Positions 4,229-11,267 of a stretch of 11,416 nucleotides of DNA are shown piece after piece. The position numbers were made by a program, and so were the translations under genes. Within the stretch, counting starts at the first letter, position 1. Each line of letters starts with the position of its first letter. Origin of the DNA: Actinomycetota bacterium (GTDB taxonomy: Bacteria > Actinomycetota > Humimicrobiia > Humimicrobiales > Humimicrobiaceae); the NCBI GenBank assembly GCA_023380915.1, contig JAMCSM010000036.1:1-11416 (forward strand), in the 5' to 3' direction. The notes below the pieces were generated by a model that saw nothing but the letters and a program-made list of their open reading frames with translations, ran no database searches and was not told the origin of the DNA.

Positions 4229-5473
4229 ATGAATTTTTTTGAATCTGAAAGACTATTCGAAGAAGCACAATCAATTTCTCCTGGAGGTGTAACCAGTGAG
4301 AGGCAACCTTCTAAATTTATACCAGGAAAATATCCGATTTTCTTACAGAAAGGTAAAGGTTCTCATGTCTGGGATGTTGATAGCAATGAATTTATAGATT
4401 GGGTTTGCTCTTATGGGCCATTAGTTTTGGGTCACTGCAATGAAAATGTGGACAGCGCTGTTATCGAGGATATAAAAAATGGTTTTTGCTTTACTTTATT
4501 TCATCCCGTTCACAATACTCTTTGTAAAAAATTGATTGAAATAATCCCATGCGCCGAAATGGTAAAAATTGTGACAAGTGGCTCAGATGCTACAGCAGCG
4601 GCGATTAGAATGGCAAGAGTTTTTAGTGGCAAAGATAAAATTATAAGGTGGGGATATCACGGATGGCATGACTGGAGTTATGGCGGTGCTGGTACTGATA
4701 GAATTGCCTATGGTGTTCCTGATAGTGTTAAGCAAGGCATTCTTACTTTTGAATATAATAACCTGGATTCTGTTGAAGCTGTTTTTAAGGAAAATAAAGG
4801 GAGTGTTGCTTGTGTAATAATGCAGCCATTTGAAGCTTCAAAGGAATTACCTGAAAAAAGTTTTCTCGAAGGAGTGAAAGAAATTACCCATCAAAATGAT
4901 GCAGTGCTAATTTTTGATGAAATAAGGTGCGGATTCAGAGTAGCTCTAGGTGGTTCGCAAGAATACTTCAATGTGATTCCTGATATGGCCTGCTTCAGCA
5001 AAGCAATGGGTAATGGCTATCCGATATCTGCAGTAGTTGGGAAAAAAGAAATAATGCTTCCAAGCCAGAAAACAAGAATTTCAGCTACATTTTTCCCGAA
5101 TACTTTTCCGATGGTGGCAGCGCTTGCTACAATCAAAGAAATTGAAGATAGAAAAGGTATAGAATTCATGTGGAAACAAGGCAAAAAAATAGCAAATGGT
5201 CTAGAAAAACTAATAAATGATTTTAATATTGAAGCAAAAATGATCGGTTTGCCCGTAATCCCTATGCTTAAATTTACCTATAATAATCCTGACCTAAACA
5301 ATAAATGCAAAGAGATATTTTTTGGGGAAATGATCGAAAGAGGAATATTCTTGCATCCAAGCCATCACTGGTTTTTATCACTTGCTCACACAGATGAAGA
5401 TGTTGACGACACTTTAAATGCAGCAGAGTTTTCTTTTTCAAAATTAAAGAAATCGATAAATATCAAGAAATGA
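4229..5473 (+). CDS. Class III PLP aminotransferase, glutamate-1-semialdehyde-mutase-like
   Basis: A 414-residue fold-type I PLP enzyme. Motifs in order: N-terminal SISPGGVTSERQP as in the GSA-mutase group, phosphate-binding SGSDAT (117-122), YHGWHDW (143-149), D230-E231 in FDEIRCGFR binding the pyridine nitrogen, and PLP lysine K258 in FSKAMGNGYPISA. ATG with AAGAGG at 4218-4223. It resembles HemL, but no other haem gene is nearby and the neighbours are sugar importer, aldolase and dehydrogenases. A GSA-like aminotransferase acting on a keto sugar, cyclitol or aldehyde is therefore more likely; class III enzymes of this type (for example the 6'-aminotransferases of aminoglycoside pathways) are known to act on sugars. 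Direction and substrate are inference. A 108-base AT-rich gap separates it from the SDR gene. Confidence 0.88.
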   Translation: MNFFESERLFEEAQSISPGGVTSERQPSKFIPGKYPIFLQKGKGSHVWDVDSNEFIDWVCSYGPLVLGHCNENVDSAVIEDIKNGFCFTLFHPVHNTLCKKLIEIIPCAEMVKIVTSGSDATAAAIRMARVFSGKDKIIRWGYHGWHDWSYGGAGTDRIAYGVPDSVKQGILTFEYNNLDSVEAVFKENKGSVACVIMQPFEASKELPEKSFLEGVKEITHQNDAVLIFDEIRCGFRVALGGSQEYFNVIPDMACFSKAMGNGYPISAVVGKKEIMLPSQKTRISATFFPNTFPMVAALATIKEIEDRKGIEFMWKQGKKIANGLEKLINDFNIEAKMIGLPVIPMLKFTYNNPDLNNKCKEIFFGEMIERGIFLHPSHHWFLSLAHTDEDVDDTLNAAEFSFSKLKKSINIKK

Positions 5474-5484
5474 AGAAAATATAC

Positions 5485-5518
5485 TTTGTATTTAAGTATA
5501 GAATCCTTATAATACAAA
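5485..5518 (+). repeat. Imperfect inverted repeat spanning a promoter
   Basis: TTTGTATT (5485-5492) is an exact inverted copy of AATACAAA (5511-5518). The symmetry continues inward as TAAG (5493-5496) against CTTA (5506-5509) with one unpaired T, leaving a 9-base loop. The arms overlay the -35 and -10 boxes of the promoter at 5486-5513, so a dimeric repressor bound here would block RNA polymerase. It could alternatively fold in RNA read through from the upstream aminotransferase gene, but no T-run follows, so a terminator role is weak. Confidence 0.5.
5486..5513 (+). promoter_or_regulatory. Sigma-A-type promoter for the Gfo/Idh-DeoR pair
   Basis: TTGTAT (5486-5491), a 16-base spacer and a perfect TATAAT (5508-5513). 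The predicted transcription start is near 5520, giving a leader of about 70 bases before the ATG at 5591. It lies just after the aminotransferase stop codon, so the last two + strand genes can be expressed apart from the transporter genes. The -10 hexamer begins a region shared with the promoter at 10214-10241. Confidence 0.65.
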
Positions 5519-5557
5519 TTAATTCATAAATAAGCTGTTATTGATTGTTTTTGAATA
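5508..5557 (+). promoter_or_regulatory. Shared promoter-leader element, copy A
   Basis: Fifty bases from the -10 box to about +38 match the - strand stretch 10219 to 10170 at 40 of 50 positions with no gap. Conserved blocks are TATAATACAAAT, then ATTCAT, CTG, TGATTGT and TTGAATA. The inverted repeat ATTCA (5522-5526) with TGAAT (5552-5556) has the same 25-base spacing in both copies. A small hairpin seen here (AATAA-GCTG-TTATT, 5529-5542) is not kept in the other copy, so DNA binding by a regulator is more likely than a conserved RNA fold. Confidence 0.6.
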
Positions 5558-5590: not shown

Positions 5591-6601
5591 ATGTTAAAAA
5601 AAATAGAAAATCTTGAGGTAGGTATGGTTGGATCCGGGTTTGCTGCTCACCTTCGTAGTTTTTCTATTGTAAAACTTGATAGTGATAGGGTAAAAATAAT
5701 TGGAATATATGACAAAGATTTAGAAAATTCAAAAAAATTTGGGGAAGAATTTTCTTTAAAGATTTTTAAATCCTTCGAAGAAATGCTTGAGAGTAATGAT
5801 ATAAATACCATAGCAGTATGTGTACCAAATAAATTTCATTATGGACTTATAAAGGAATCCTTAAAAAATGGGAAACATATAATTTGTGAATATCCGCTAG
5901 TTGTTGATGATTATAATAAGGCTGAAGAGCTTTTTAAAATGGCGGATAAAAACAATTTATTTATTCATGTGGGCCAGACTATGGATTTTGACAGCGACCT
6001 TTCTTTTGTACTACTTCATAAAGATAAACTCGGGAAACTCTACATGGGATACAAATATATGACTTTTGGCAAGACTGGTTCCTGGTTTAGTTTTTCAGGT
6101 TCTAAAGAAAAATTTAATAATCTTGGTGAGTGGTATGTTGACCGTAATCTTACCGGCGGGTGGATGGTAACTTCCTGCTACCATGGTATTCAGATATTAA
6201 GAAAAATTTTTGGAGAAGTTTCACGAGTCAGTGCGGTTGATTCAAGTGACGGGAAGGTTGGAGCAGGCTCAGTTATTCTGGAGCATTTGGATGGTTCAAG
6301 TAGTGTTGTTCAATGGGGTTTATCAATTCTTGGTAAAACCTTCAATACTCTTATAATTACAGGTTCAGAAGGTTCAGTCGAAATAGATGAAGGGAAATAT
6401 TTAATTCATACTTCAGAATTTAAAGGAAGTGGCTCGCTTCAGGAAAAAGATACATTTTATGATGATTCCAAATTATTGCTGGATAAAATCAATGGTATTG
6501 CTGATTTTGATAAATCAAATAATGATATGTTAATGAATTTAAAAATTTCACTTCTTGCACAAAAATCTGCAAATGAAGGCAGAGAATTTAAAATTCAATA
6601 G
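5591..6601 (+). CDS. Gfo/Idh/MocA family protein with non-canonical active site
   Basis: A 336-residue two-domain protein: N-terminal Rossmann fold (VGMVGSGFAAH, 10-20) and C-terminal alpha/beta domain. The family's usual EKP motif reads CEYP at 99-102, putting Tyr101 in place of the catalytic lysine. In the GGxxxDxxxH motif (GGWMVTSCYH, 189-198) Thr194 replaces the usual Asp while His198 remains. The first change recalls biliverdin reductase, which also has EYP in this family. It may therefore reduce or bind a different substrate, or work without the Lys-Asp pair of sugar dehydrogenases. AAGGAG (5574-5579) lies 11 bases before the ATG. It is cotranscribed with the DeoR gene 19 bases downstream from the promoter at 5486-5513. 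Binding of NAD(P) is likely; the reaction is unknown. Confidence 0.88.
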   Translation: MLKKIENLEVGMVGSGFAAHLRSFSIVKLDSDRVKIIGIYDKDLENSKKFGEEFSLKIFKSFEEMLESNDINTIAVCVPNKFHYGLIKESLKNGKHIICEYPLVVDDYNKAEELFKMADKNNLFIHVGQTMDFDSDLSFVLLHKDKLGKLYMGYKYMTFGKTGSWFSFSGSKEKFNNLGEWYVDRNLTGGWMVTSCYHGIQILRKIFGEVSRVSAVDSSDGKVGAGSVILEHLDGSSSVVQWGLSILGKTFNTLIITGSEGSVEIDEGKYLIHTSEFKGSGSLQEKDTFYDDSKLLLDKINGIADFDKSNNDMLMNLKISLLAQKSANEGREFKIQ

Positions 6602-6620: not shown

Positions 6621-7385
6621 TTGTTAGGTGAAGAAAGAAGAGAATATATATTAAATCTGGTTAATAAAGCAGGGAGTGCTGCTGCTATTGATATTGCCAG
6701 AGCTTTAAATGTATCTGAAACAACTATCAGAAGAGATTTAAACAAGCTTTCAAAAAAAGGACTTATCAGAAGAACTCACGGAGGCGCAATAAACAAATTA
6801 TCGGTAGGCCAGGAGATGAAATTTGAAGTTCAAAAAGAAAAATTCATTGAAGAAAAAAAGAAAATAGCACTGGCGGCAGCAGAACTTATTGAAGAAGGTG
6901 ATGTAATTCTTATCGAGGCAGGCACTACTGGATTACAGACTGCATTGAATATTACCAGCAGGAAACAGCTTACAATAGTGACAAATAGCTGCGACATTGC
7001 AGTTCTGCTTGGTAAGACTAATCCCGGATATTCGATAATTCTAAGCGGCGGCATATTAAAAACTGATACTCATTCCCTCGTAGGACCAATTGCAGAACAA
7101 ACTTTCAGGCATATAAATGTGGATAAAGCTTTTATCGGCATTTCAGGACTGGATATTGAAAAGGGAATTACTGCAGCAGACCAGATTGAAGCGAAAACTA
7201 AAATGAATATCATAGGTTGTGCAAAAAAAGTAATAGCCTTATGTGACCATTCGAAGATCGGGCATGTTTCCATGAATTTTGTTGCACCAATTCAAAAGAT
7301 AAATGTTCTTATAACTGATTCAGAAGCCGATAGGGAATTTCTGGAAAAAATAAAAGAGCTTGAAATAGAGATTATAATAAAATAA
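6621..7385 (+). CDS. DeoR family transcriptional regulator
   Basis: A DNA-binding repressor of the sugar-phosphate-responsive DeoR/GlpR type. From TTG 6621 the protein is 254 residues, the normal family length, and begins MLGEERREYIL, the usual DeoR start; longer frames reaching back into the previous gene add atypical sequence. GAAAGG at 6601-6606 is a plausible, rather distant ribosome binding site. The winged helix-turn-helix carries the signature VSETTIRRDLNKLSKKGLIRRTHGGA (31-56, quoted in part: TTIRRDL, IRRTHGGA). The effector domain shows EAGTTG (99-104; Asp is usual at the first position), TNS (121-123), SGG (142-144), FIGISGLD (171-178) and CDHSKIGH (208-215). DeoR-family effectors are typically phosphorylated sugars. 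It is the obvious candidate to control this locus and itself through the shared promoter element; that link is inference. Confidence 0.93.
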   Translation: MLGEERREYILNLVNKAGSAAAIDIARALNVSETTIRRDLNKLSKKGLIRRTHGGAINKLSVGQEMKFEVQKEKFIEEKKKIALAAAELIEEGDVILIEAGTTGLQTALNITSRKQLTIVTNSCDIAVLLGKTNPGYSIILSGGILKTDTHSLVGPIAEQTFRHINVDKAFIGISGLDIEKGITAADQIEAKTKMNIIGCAKKVIALCDHSKIGHVSMNFVAPIQKINVLITDSEADREFLEKIKELEIEIIIK

Positions 7386-7499: not shown

Positions 7500-8651
7500 T
7501 TATAATTTTAAAGGCAATTCTATCCACTTTTTATCTTTATCAGAAACCACTGCTGCTTCAATTACTTCCTGGACTTTGTAGCCTGCGTGCATATCTGCTT
7601 CAGGTTTTCTGCCTTCTGCAATGTTGCTTATAAAATCATATGCAAGACCGGTGTGATATCTTATCCAGCCAATCGAAAATTTAGGGCCCGGAAAAGCAAG
7701 GGCAGGCTTCGGATATCTCTGGACAGTTTCCAGTGCCTTAAAACCTCTCCGGCCCCCAATCGGCTCTTCGGCATCCCTTGTATCATAAGCTTCAAGGAAG
7801 TTTGGCTGCATGCTGTTAAACATCAATGCTCCTTTATCACCATGTATTTCAAGCCTCACCTCATCATTTGCACCGGTAGCCACCTTTGTTGCTTCCAGCG
7901 TTCCAAGAGCACCATTGTACATTTCAAAGATAAGTATAGCTGTGTCATCTACATCAACCTCGCACATTTCGCCAGGGCTTCCCGCAATCGGCCTCTCTTT
8001 TACAAATGTTTCTAGCTTCGCAAATACTTTTTTAAAGTCTCCAAGCAGAAATCTTGTAAGATCTATAACATGGGATGCAAGATCGTAAAGTGACCCTCCT
8101 CCACAGAAATTTTTTTGTATTTTCCAGTAGGAAGGTCTTGACGGATCTGAATTTCCTGCATGAAGGTATGCTGACCTTATGCTGTAGACTCTTCCAAGAA
8201 AGCCTTCATCTATCAACTGTTTTGCCCTCATTATTGCAGGCATATAGCGGTATTCAAAACTAATCTGGCAGATGAGTTCGGGATGTGATTCTGCAGCATC
8301 CAAAATCTCTTTAGCTTCTGTTAGATTCATCGCAAGAGGTTTTTCACAATTAACATGCTTTCCTGCTGCCAATGCATCAAGTATTATATCTTTATGGACA
8401 TAATTAGGCGTACATACTTCTATTATATCTATGTCATCCCTGGTTATTAAATCTTTGTAATTTTCCGTTGCAAATCCAAAATCTGCCTGGCCAATGCCTT
8501 CTTCTGCATCTGAAATCGGGGTTGAGCACACTCCAATCATTTTAAGCTTTGCGGGGACTGGCTTATAATAAAAAGGAAGATTAAGATACGAAAGCGTATG
8601 CACTTTTCCAATAAAACCGTAACCAACCATGCCGATACCCAGAGTTTTCAT
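7500..8651 (-). CDS. Gfo/Idh/MocA family dehydrogenase (canonical active site)
   Basis: A 383-residue NAD(P)-dependent oxidoreductase of the glucose-fructose/inositol dehydrogenase family. N-terminal Rossmann motif VGYGFIGKVH (9-18), CTPNYVH (80-86), intact catalytic EKP (CEKPLAMN, 102-109; K104), and GGGSLYDLASHVIDL (184-198) with Asp190 and His194 of the DxxxH pair. C-terminal segments HGDKGAL and GWIRYHTGLAYDFISNI are typical of sugar or cyclitol dehydrogenases such as IolG/YcjS-like proteins. A very good GGAGG at 8661-8665 lies 9 bases from the ATG. It is the second gene after the aminotransferase at 8756-10117, separated by 104 bases. It probably oxidises a sugar or cyclitol hydroxyl to a ketone that an aminotransferase could then use, or acts in the reverse direction. 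Exact substrate unknown. Confidence 0.93.
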   Translation of the reverse strand: MKTLGIGMVGYGFIGKVHTLSYLNLPFYYKPVPAKLKMIGVCSTPISDAEEGIGQADFGFATENYKDLITRDDIDIIEVCTPNYVHKDIILDALAAGKHVNCEKPLAMNLTEAKEILDAAESHPELICQISFEYRYMPAIMRAKQLIDEGFLGRVYSIRSAYLHAGNSDPSRPSYWKIQKNFCGGGSLYDLASHVIDLTRFLLGDFKKVFAKLETFVKERPIAGSPGEMCEVDVDDTAILIFEMYNGALGTLEATKVATGANDEVRLEIHGDKGALMFNSMQPNFLEAYDTRDAEEPIGGRRGFKALETVQRYPKPALAFPGPKFSIGWIRYHTGLAYDFISNIAEGRKPEADMHAGYKVQEVIEAAVVSDKDKKWIELPLKL

Positions 8652-8755: not shown

Positions 8756-10117
8756 CTATATATATCCGAATTCCTTTTCTGCAATTGTTATGGATTCATC
8801 AATTATATCAAGAGCTTTTTCTGCAATATCTTCCTCCATAATGAGAGGCGGTGACATCCTCAGGTTATGGTTTGCGGGTATCCATGCAAGGCCTTTGGAA
8901 AATGCTGCCTGGTAAACTCTTTTTCCTGCTTCGGTAAATGGTTCTTTTGTATTTTGATCTTTTACAAGCTCCATTCCAAGAAGACATCCTTTGCCCCTAA
9001 CCTCACCGATTATTTTATGCCCGTCTTTCATTTTAACAAGTCTTTTCATTATAAAATCTCCAAGGCTGGCGGACCTTTGAACTATATTTTCTTCTTCTAT
9101 TACTTCAAGAGATGCAAGTCCTGCTGCAGCTGCCATGGGGTTTCCGCCGTAGCTGGTTGAGGCTGATATCTTATCCATAACTTCGGTATATTCTTCCTTT
9201 ATTGCAAATGCCGTTGCCGGAAAACCATTTGCCAGCCCTTTTCCAAGCACTAAGACATCTGGTATTACACCGTAATGATCCACGCAGAACATTTTACCGG
9301 TTCTTGCGCAGCAGGTAAGCACTTCATCAACAATAAAAAATATTTTAAGCCTGTCACAGAGTTTCCTTATTGCAGGGATAAAGCCATCCGGATATACAAC
9401 AGAGCCTGACCATCCCTGTATAGGTTCCATAACAATTGCGGCAACATTGCCTGTACCTTCCATCTTTATCTGTTTTTCAAGCATATCTACGCAAAAGAGA
9501 TTGCACTCCGGGTATTTTTTTTCATAGGCGCATCGATAACAGTGCCCATTTGGAGCGAGGTGAAAGCCTGATGCTCTGGGACCTGATGTAAAATCTGCAA
9601 CCTGGGTTAAAGACACAGATGCCATAGTTTTACCGTGAAAGTCGCCATAAAATGAGAAAAATTCATATTTTTTTGTATAGGCTCTTGCAGCTCTCATTGC
9701 AGCTTCTACTGATTCCGTACCTGCACAGTACATCTGTATTCCATTCAAGCTGCCGGGTGTAATTGACGCAAGTTTTTCAAGAAAGAGTGTTTTAACTTCA
9801 GTTGTAAAATCGTGGCAATTCATAAGCCTGGCAGCATATTTTTGCACATATTCCACAACTTTTGGGTGGCAGTGGCCTAGGTTTGTTACATATATACCTG
9901 AGGAAAAATCAATGTACCTGTTGCCGTCAGCATCAGTTAATGTTACGCCATGACCTGATTTAAAAGCTACAGGAAAAAGTTTTACTTGTGATGAATAACC
10001 CTTCATATACTTTTCTGCTCTTGCATGAAGTTCCTTTGATTTTGGTCCCGGCGGCGGTATTTTAATGTACGGTACGGTTGCCGGATCGATTTTAGCCCAA
10101 TTCCTGTCATAGTTCAT
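8756..10117 (-). CDS. Class III PLP aminotransferase (4-aminobutyrate aminotransferase-like) with cysteine cluster
   Basis: A 453-residue fold-type I PLP enzyme. Motifs: DADGNRYIDFSSGIYVTNLGHCHP (62-85, in part), CAGTESVEAAMRAAR (131-145; phosphate binding), FYGDFHGKT (156-164), D264-E265 in IVDEVLTCCARTGK, and PLP lysine K293 in LGKGLANGFPATA. Two oddities: Leu-Thr-Cys-Cys-Ala replaces the usual Gln-Thr-Gly-Phe-Gly after DEV, losing the Gln that normally contacts PLP; and residues 193-209 hold four cysteines (C-x2-C-x8-C-x3-C). I recall a similar CYRC insertion in Pyrococcus aminotransferase/racemase relatives, so it may be a family trait. AAGGAG (10125-10130) is 7 bases from the ATG. First gene of the - strand pair, transcribed from 10214-10241. 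The GabT name is only a family label; in this setting an amino-sugar or omega-amino substrate, or a racemase activity, is equally possible. Confidence 0.9.
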   Translation of the reverse strand: MNYDRNWAKIDPATVPYIKIPPPGPKSKELHARAEKYMKGYSSQVKLFPVAFKSGHGVTLTDADGNRYIDFSSGIYVTNLGHCHPKVVEYVQKYAARLMNCHDFTTEVKTLFLEKLASITPGSLNGIQMYCAGTESVEAAMRAARAYTKKYEFFSFYGDFHGKTMASVSLTQVADFTSGPRASGFHLAPNGHCYRCAYEKKYPECNLFCVDMLEKQIKMEGTGNVAAIVMEPIQGWSGSVVYPDGFIPAIRKLCDRLKIFFIVDEVLTCCARTGKMFCVDHYGVIPDVLVLGKGLANGFPATAFAIKEEYTEVMDKISASTSYGGNPMAAAAGLASLEVIEEENIVQRSASLGDFIMKRLVKMKDGHKIIGEVRGKGCLLGMELVKDQNTKEPFTEAGKRVYQAAFSKGLAWIPANHNLRMSPPLIMEEDIAEKALDIIDESITIAEKEFGYI

Positions 10118-10169: not shown

Positions 10170-10219
10170 TATTCAATTACAATCAGTATCAGTCTAATAA
10201 TGAATATATTTGTATTATA
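10170..10219 (-). promoter_or_regulatory. Shared promoter-leader element, copy B
   Basis: Read on the - strand from 10219 down to 10170, this begins with the -10 box TATAAT and matches 5508-5557 at 40 of 50 bases with no gap. It includes the same ATTCA-N25-TGAAT inverted repeat (arms 10201-10205 and 10171-10175). The centre also has a direct repeat CTGATACTGAT on the - strand. It covers the start of the leader of the aminotransferase/dehydrogenase pair. A common operator for one regulator is the simplest reading; the DeoR protein encoded at 6621-7385 is the nearest candidate. Confidence 0.6.
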
Positions 10220-10241
10220 TAGCTTTATAAACCATAGTCAA
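10214..10241 (-). promoter_or_regulatory. Sigma-A-type promoter for the aminotransferase/dehydrogenase pair
   Basis: On the - strand, TTGACT (10241-10236), a 16-base spacer and perfect TATAAT (10219-10214). The predicted start is near 10207, giving a leader of about 90 bases before the ATG at 10117. It is the best match to consensus in the window. Its -35 box is 13 bases from the -35 box of the + strand promoter, so the two promoters stand back-to-back. Confidence 0.7.
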
Positions 10242-10371: not shown

Positions 10372-10908
10372 ATGTTAAAAAAATATAATATTGCTGTAAA
10401 CGTATTGTTCTGGATTATTATAGCAATGGTTATTACTATAGTTATTTTTTGGTTTGCAGTACCCGGATTTAAAATCCCTTCTTATTTATTTGCCCAGGGA
10501 AATGCAAATACGCTAAATACCTCAAACACACCACCAGTCGAGAAAGTTCCCATAATAGTTACAAAATATCTGCCTGTGGAGAAAAATGTGGAATGGTTTT
10601 ATTTCGTTGCTACTGCCTATACGAAAAATGATGATGGACAGGGTACGTCGAATAAAACTTCTACAGGCAAAAAACCTTCGGAGGGAATAATAGCTGTTGA
10701 CCCTGAAATAATTCCATATGGAACAAGAGTTGAAATCAAAAATATGGGGTTTTTTGTAGCTGAGGACTGCGGAGGCAAAATAAAGGGAAATAGAATAGAT
10801 ATATATTTCGATACGATAGAAGAGGCAAAAAAATTCGGGAAAAAAGGTTTGTGGCTCAGATTTGTTGATAGCCCAATGATGCTGGCTGAAGAGAACTTTA
10901 TTTTTTAA
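10372..10908 (+). CDS. Membrane-anchored 3D-domain protein (cell-wall lytic enzyme-like)
   Basis: A 178-residue protein with one N-terminal membrane segment (about residues 11-31, LFWIIIAMVITIVIFWFAV), a short linker rich in Asn, Thr and Pro, and a C-terminal 3D domain (about 77-166). The domain shows FVATAYT (78-84), the partly kept TSTGKKP, and the three aspartates that name the family: D110 in IAVDP, D132 in AEDCGG and D143 in GNRIDIYF. The 3D domain has the double-psi barrel fold of MltA and is found in peptidoglycan-acting proteins such as YocH/YabE-type proteins of Firmicutes. The role is thus probably extracytoplasmic cell-wall remodelling, unrelated to the sugar genes. Start ATG was chosen because GGAG (10363-10366) lies 5 bases upstream and the membrane segment follows directly. 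No G5, LysM or SH3 domain is present, making it a minimal version. Confidence 0.85.
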   Translation: MLKKYNIAVNVLFWIIIAMVITIVIFWFAVPGFKIPSYLFAQGNANTLNTSNTPPVEKVPIIVTKYLPVEKNVEWFYFVATAYTKNDDGQGTSNKTSTGKKPSEGIIAVDPEIIPYGTRVEIKNMGFFVAEDCGGKIKGNRIDIYFDTIEEAKKFGKKGLWLRFVDSPMMLAEENFIF

Positions 10909-11267
10909 ATTGTTTTGTTTTGCCCGATAATACTGGTTAAAATTTTGTAAAACTCTTTTGCAGAATTTTTATTTATTCTTTTTATATCGAAAGTTTCTTT
11001 TTTGTTTTTTATAATTAAAGAGGAACTAAGTAATCCTTCCTTTAATTCTGCTGAAACTATGTATGGATAGGTGGCAATGAATGTTTTATCTCTGGAAATA
11101 TTGCTTACAAAGAAAAAAAACAATTTTTTGTCTGTCAGAACCAGTTGTCCGGAAAGCCTGTCATCCAGGACGCCCGCTGCCTCACAGATCAGTTTTTCAT
11201 CGGGTCCAATAAATAGCAAAAAACTGGAACCTTTGGGTGTTGAGGAAGTTTCTTTTGATATTGCCAT
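10905..11267 (-). CDS. Small PH-like (bPH/GRAM-type) domain protein
   Basis: A 120-residue soluble protein without signal peptide or membrane helix. The pattern GPDEKLICEAAGVL, SGQLVLTDKKLFFFFVSN (39-56), a strand pair ending in IVSAELKEGLLSSSLIIKN, and a C-terminal helix (NSAKEFYKILTSII, 101-114) is that of bacterial PH-like domains (bPH/YokE-type), which in this form carry the phrase GxLxLTDxRLxF. I cannot assign a function; members occur as lone domains in many bacteria. CGGAG (11276-11280) lies 8 bases before the ATG. Its last codons overlap the 3D-domain gene by 4 bases tail to tail, so the two transcripts must converge. Function unknown; assignment to the fold is by pattern only. Confidence 0.7.
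   Translation of the reverse strand: MAISKETSSTPKGSSFLLFIGPDEKLICEAAGVLDDRLSGQLVLTDKKLFFFFVSNISRDKTFIATYPYIVSAELKEGLLSSSLIIKNKKETFDIKRINKNSAKEFYKILTSIIGQNKTI

Follow-up and report, generated by a model that had tools for sequence, protein, structure and literature searches.

A predicted DeoR-type operator at two opposing operons of an uncultured actinobacterial lineage

Gene content and paired promoter elements

The window, that is, the whole stretch of 11,416 nucleotides analysed here, carries two opposing gene blocks. Its forward strand encodes an ABC permease and a DUF4380 protein, the latter closest in NCBIfam to the TTE1925-type mutarotase at a score below cut-off. The same strand also carries a DeoC/LacD aldolase, an SDR, the class-III aminotransferase AT1, which ends at 5473, a Gfo/Idh/MocA oxidoreductase (GFO1; 5591–6601, PF01408) and DeoR (6624–7385). 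The reverse strand encodes a second class-III aminotransferase (AT2; 8756–10117, PF00202), followed by the Gfo/Idh oxidoreductase GFO2 (7500–8651), whose best NCBIfam match, levoglucosan dehydrogenase, was below cut-off. The translation of AT2 is GABA-transaminase-like except for a cysteine-rich insert, HCYRCAYEKKYPECNLFC (window 9490–9560), possibly a metal site. Region 10372–11267 holds a 3D-domain protein gene that diverges from AT2 and, beyond it, a small conserved ORF in the opposite orientation. This pair also adjoins AT2 or its promoter in genomes G035 and G027 and the LacD–DeoR operon in G002; in G011 a 3D gene adjoins the GFO1 homologue.

The product of 6624–7385 is a DeoR/GlpR-family transcriptional regulator, scoring above cut-off both for the N-terminal helix-turn-helix (PF08220, 64.2 bits) and for the C-terminal DeoRC sensor domain (PF00455, 157.8 bits). 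None of the named NCBIfam DeoR subfamilies (GlpR, AgaR, SrlR, UlaR and others) was matched above its curated cut-off; the best was haloarchaeal GlpR at 206.5 bits (cut-off 300), and AgaR gave 179.8 (cut-off 260).

Two copies of a 50-base element stand at the heads of the downstream operons: copy A (5508–5557, forward strand) upstream of GFO1–DeoR, and copy B (10170–10219, reverse strand) upstream of AT2–GFO2. Both begin with a TATAAT −10 box, at 5508–5513 on the forward strand and at 10214–10219 on the reverse strand, where the promoter scan also found it. A spacer of 16 bases separates each from its −35 region. For copy B this is TTGACT (10236–10241, reverse strand), which completes the best promoter-like match of the window at 11 of 12 consensus positions; for copy A it is a weak TTGTAT (5486–5491, forward strand), below what the consensus scan listed. 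The first-pass annotation, made from the sequence alone, had reported that the copies agree without a gap at 40 of 50 positions, that they share a 12-base exact block, TATAATACAAAT, and that the likeness sets in at the −10 box, the −35 to −10 spacers being dissimilar. We recovered all of this: the likeness covers the −10 to about +40 but neither the −35 nor the spacer, and the flanks of the two copies are dissimilar. The annotation had further called the downstream genes unrelated, which needs qualification. Both operons contain a Gfo/Idh oxidoreductase and both blocks a class-III aminotransferase, yet these are only distant paralogues, as GFO1 or AT1 queries matched GFO2 or AT2 orthologues of other genomes at about 21–32% identity.

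The pair does not arise by chance. Copies A and B form the best 50-base pair of the window, direct or inverted, and, neighbouring registers of the same pair aside, all remaining pairs of 50-mers stayed below 38 matches in either arrangement. In 60 dinucleotide shuffles, applied block by block to the whole window, the best pair had 37 matches, and the maximum over 5000 shuffles of the two promoter regions was 36, with 0/5000 reaching 40. Because the scan listed no terminator-like site between AT1 and GFO1, GFO1–DeoR may also be transcribed from the upstream operon.

Conservation of the element across the class

We compared the locus with 40 genomes of one class, that of G001. Searches with DeoR returned 566 homologues at E ≤ 0.001, some of them from Actinobacteria metagenome-assembled genomes (MAGs) and one from Candidatus Humimicrobiaceae, so the class is probably Candidatus Humimicrobiia. 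Among 21 DeoR loci found in genome contigs, eight had 62–75% identity, all from Actinobacteria/Actinomycetota MAGs. DeoR was present in 16/40 class genomes (E ≤ 1e-50) and full-length AT2 orthologues (75–84% identity) in 13/40. The two co-occur: DeoR was found in 12 of the 13 genomes with a full AT2 versus 4 of the 27 others, namely G002, G007 (partial AT2), G010 and G034. In the thirteenth full-AT2 genome, G028, only about 750 bp of contig remain beyond AT2. More distant DeoR paralogues, at about 43–44% identity, were seen in G007 (L154, contig G007:C176), G001 (G001:C137) and G011 (G011:C13), and the one in G007 follows a P-II–glutamate dehydrogenase (GDH) unit.

The first-pass annotation had proposed comparing orthologous upstream regions, and there the element is kept: it is anchored at the −10 in 10 of 13 AT2 promoters (G001, G003, G004, G005, G006, G008, G011, G028, G035 and G036), and G002 carries it upstream of a LacD–DeoR operon. 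The AT2 promoters of G012, G013 and G014 had no matrix match, though DeoR is present there; this clade has the more distant form of it (62–63% identity). Those of G012 (L079) and G013 (L080) share GTGCAACAAT, which also occurs in a site at a contig end of G004 (G004:C108). A LacI-family regulator is divergent from deoR in G012 and G014 and could have taken over control there; a comparison of the DeoR helix-turn-helix residues with the divergent promoters of G012–G014 gave no clear link.

From these 11 sites (10 AT2 promoters and G002 LacD–DeoR), none of them from the window, we built a matrix. Applied to the window, it ranked copy A first (32.2 bits) and copy B second (29.7 bits), the next place scoring 5.9. 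The sites of the first matrix had been chosen by visual inspection around the −10 of AT2 promoters, and leave-one-out and non-training-site tests were therefore added. With window sites kept in and the close relatives G001, G004, G008 and G028 left out together, the top-scoring place was the element itself at 10 of the 11 loci. Among those ten, G001, G004 and G006 gave the match on the opposite strand of the element, as expected for a near-palindromic sequence; in G028 the element came second to a P-II promoter site. Outside the matrix, the element was found at the second copy of AT2 that G001 has (33.2 bits), at the P-II–GDH promoters of G001 (26.2 bits) and G028 (23.5 bits) and at a G027 promoter divergent from a 3D-domain gene, as in the window (25.3 bits; the downstream gene is off the contig and was assigned by synteny). 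The G004:C108 site scored 25.2 bits and has no gene assigned to it. A weaker non-training site at the G034 LacD promoter (15.7 bits) keeps C8, C18, T35, G36 and T45 (numbered from the first T of the −10 as position 1) and has lost G46. A further match at G001:C136 was set aside because its letters are identical to the end of C192, the two contig ends overlapping.

About 674 kb of class loci, some of them overlapping and all retrieved on account of regulon genes or model matches, was scanned, and the best places in it other than recognised elements scored 22.6 and 17.0 bits. The higher one (G035:C97) was set aside, since an unrelated gene has its 3′ end there and the sequence looks like a terminator hairpin. 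The other (L083:4140–4189, on G006:C210) is followed after about 90 bases by a class-II fructose-bisphosphate aldolase gene, itself a neighbour of AT2, and no clear −10 fits it. Occurrence at many unrelated promoters, which the first-pass annotation had named as grounds for abandoning a shared operator, was not seen among the matches listed for the class genomes (150 first-look candidates per genome). Genomes lacking this DeoR gave weak matches of at most 19.8 bits among those listed, the G027 and G028 promoters aside, and 5 of the 9 such places retrieved lie inside open frames. DUF4380 mutarotase loci served as a negative set; 16 of the 23 places found were scanned, and scores there peaked at 10.1.

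We then asked which genes follow the element. Of the 17 genomes that have this DeoR, the window counted among them, 5 show the element at the head of the operon that contains the regulator: the window, G002, G011, G035 and G036. In G010 and G034 the start of that operon falls off the contig. In G005, DeoR is divergent from an element-led operon. The element thus stands at operons that contain or adjoin the regulator gene. In the other element-bearing genomes it lies at AT2, and deoR is either close by or on a different contig; in G027 and G028, where the contigs break at this point, DeoR was not found. Upstream of the separate deoR genes (G001, G003, G004, G006, G007, G008, G012, G013 and G014), no site of at least 7 bits was present, except a weak one of 12.5 in G001; autoregulation through the element is therefore not general. 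LacD loci carry the element in 2 of 13 cases (G002 and G034; the G031 locus has no upstream DNA), and standalone P-II–GDH units in 2 of 8, of which G026 has only 88 upstream bases. The element as a mark of GFO1 was considered and dropped: the sole GFO1 homologue of the class (G011, 54%) lies away from DeoR and lacks the element, which indicates that the element follows the AT2 genes and DeoR, not GFO1.

P-II and GDH are physically linked to the same pathway. AT2–GFO2–P-II–GDH form one gene run in G005 (L088), G013 (L080), G014 (L078), G035 (L075) and G036 (L077), and the same row extends as far as the contig does in G034; in G001 and G028, P-II–GDH lies apart with an element of its own. The run packages the aminotransferase/dehydrogenase pathway together with nitrogen sensing and glutamate oxidation; in G035 and G036 it ends in DeoR.

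A ladder of half-sites with a ten-base period

The conserved unit is a repeat with a period of 10 bp. Autocorrelation of the element matrix gave r = 0.64 at lag 10 and 0.39 at lag 20, with all other lags to 25 at or below 0.31, and the lag-10 value was reached by 0/5000 column permutations. Nine positions are invariant in the 13 aligned sites: A5, T6, C8, C18, T35, G36, T45, G46 and T52. C8 and C18 belong to inverted half-sites (ATACAA and NNNCAN), and G36 and G46 to direct half-sites (NTGNNN). The inverted half-sites overlap and then follow the −10, and the direct half-sites come after them.

In order, copy A reads as ATACAA (5512–5517), which overlaps the −10, and ATTCAT (5522–5527), both inverted and on the reverse strand; then AAGCTG (5532–5537), the least conserved, where the orientation switches; then TTGATT (5541–5546) and TTGAAT (5551–5556), both direct and on the forward strand. 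Copy B, transcribed from the reverse strand, repeats the order: ATACAA (10210–10215) and ATTCAT (10200–10205), as read on the reverse strand, are inverted relative to transcription and so lie on the forward strand, AGACTG (10190–10195, reverse-strand reading) marks the switch, and CTGATT (10181–10186) and TTGAAT (10171–10176) are direct, on the reverse strand. The middle half-site (24–30) is direct in G002, G003, G006, G011, G035 and G036 and inverted in G001, G004, G005, G008 and G028.

Symmetry follows from this arrangement in several registers. Palindromic centres lie at 22, 27, 32 and 37, the best being 27 (r = 0.71) and the next 32 (r = 0.67). The inverted repeat ATTCA-N25-TGAAT described in the first-pass annotation is present and corresponds to centre 32; it is one among several repeat relations, which the 10-bp ladder underlies. 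In G011 both arms at centre 32 have changed together, to GTACA-N25-TGTAC.

The layout resembles operators known for this family. IolR of Bacillus subtilis is a DeoR-family repressor with tandem direct repeats of 11-mers; the element shares the tandem repeats and differs in its period of 10 and its mixed inverted and direct arrangement. For the DeoR-family RhaR of rhamnose regulons, the motifs described consist of a direct repeat in two imperfect copies, with a 10–11 bp period (PMC3870299). The element is like them in having imperfect direct repeats of that period upstream of sugar-catabolic operons with a local DeoR-family regulator; it differs in its roughly five half-sites, its orientation switch in the middle, its overlap with the −10, and its genes and lineage. 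In Caldicellulosiruptor bescii, the reported DeoR-family sites lie in 5′ UTRs or over promoter elements, which was taken as repression, and the AxgR site has a tandem-repeat structure (PMC8579813). Their placement is that of the element, while the regulators and pathways are different and the ladder here is longer. In sum, the element contains direct repeats within the 10–11 bp range and runs from the −10 downstream, over a promoter element and into the 5′ leader (start site assumed).

The resident DeoR as the probable binder

Relatives keep the element on the same pathway genes, so the two opposing operons of the window are very probably one regulon. The first-pass annotation had suggested a common operator joining both blocks, and the recurrence of the element at AT2, LacD–DeoR, LacD and two P-II–GDH promoters, and at the head of DeoR operons, agrees with that suggestion. 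We put the probability at roughly 80% that copies A and B are operators of the DeoR repressor encoded at 6624–7385, which would bind them and block initiation.

Each copy would present a ladder of about five half-sites, weaker in the middle, that starts at the −10 box and, with the start site that we assume, extends to about +37; their spacing of about 10 bp would place them on one face of the helix. DeoR, probably as at least two cooperating dimers, would bind this ladder and cover the −10 and the start site, thereby blocking RNA polymerase at the GFO1–deoR and AT2–GFO2 operons, which at the former would amount to autoregulation. Inducers of DeoR-family regulators are expected to be sugar phosphates or pathway intermediates. 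Such a compound would release DeoR, so that the aminotransferase and dehydrogenases are made when substrate is present. The link of the aminotransferase, Gfo/Idh and LacD genes to P-II and GDH hints that the amino group of the substrate ends on glutamate: the aminotransferase may pass it there and GDH may release it.

The main rival accepts an operator common to both operons and assigns it to another binder, for example a further paralogue of DeoR or a nitrogen-metabolism regulator, the latter proposed because P-II and GDH are linked to the same genes. Two P-II–GDH promoters carrying the element are in line with this, as are the DeoR paralogues of G001, G007 and G011, one of which adjoins P-II–GDH, and the presence of the element in G027 and G028, where no DeoR was detected. 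However, it is this DeoR and no paralogue that the element-led operons of the window, G002, G011, G035 and G036 contain; it is this DeoR that co-occurs with AT2; and the 10-bp direct-repeat geometry is of the kind reported for DeoR-family sites (PMC3870299). We therefore regard a different binder as unlikely.

A recent promoter duplication would make the likeness of A and B meaningless for regulation, and the 40 of 50 matches between them do exceed those of either copy with the ten element-bearing AT2 promoters (25–36 of 50). Yet a LacD promoter of another genome matches the two copies at 36 and 37 of 50, nearly as close as A is to B, so plain duplication fits less well; the element is kept across genomes at AT2, and the likeness, confined to the −10 to about +40, leaves out the −35 and the spacer. 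The mismatches between A and B also favour low-information positions, weakly (707 of 20,000 permutations gave as low a value, 1472 of 20,000 without the −10). This explanation thus seems very unlikely, while a duplication followed by selection on the operator may lie behind the pair. The shared leader might instead act as RNA, as a riboswitch, attenuator or leader hairpin, since the greater part of the element follows the presumed start site. But the window has no Rfam match at gathering score, the folds of the leaders are unremarkable (z = −1.36 and 0.09), and what is conserved is a ladder of 10-bp period reaching into the −10 itself; of the readings weighed here, we give this one the least credence.

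The resident DeoR thus stands as the preferred binder, and the predicted DeoR-type operator and regulon are well supported by the comparisons above. They are of a familiar type and new in this uncultured lineage, and the ladder is long and mixed in orientation. A search of the literature by the class name Candidatus Humimicrobiia returned no title on gene regulation.

More tentatively, and with the odds somewhat against it, the mixed orientation itself (two inverted, one switchable and two direct half-sites, about one turn apart) may mark an array of several DeoR dimers straddling the −10. Such an array would co-control the sugar dehydrogenase/aminotransferase pathway and P-II–GDH, so that a carbon-source repressor sets the release of nitrogen from an amino-sugar-like substrate. 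For the lineage, the finding amounts to a predicted assignment of regulator, operator and regulon, which would be useful mainly as a regulon map for a group that is uncultured.
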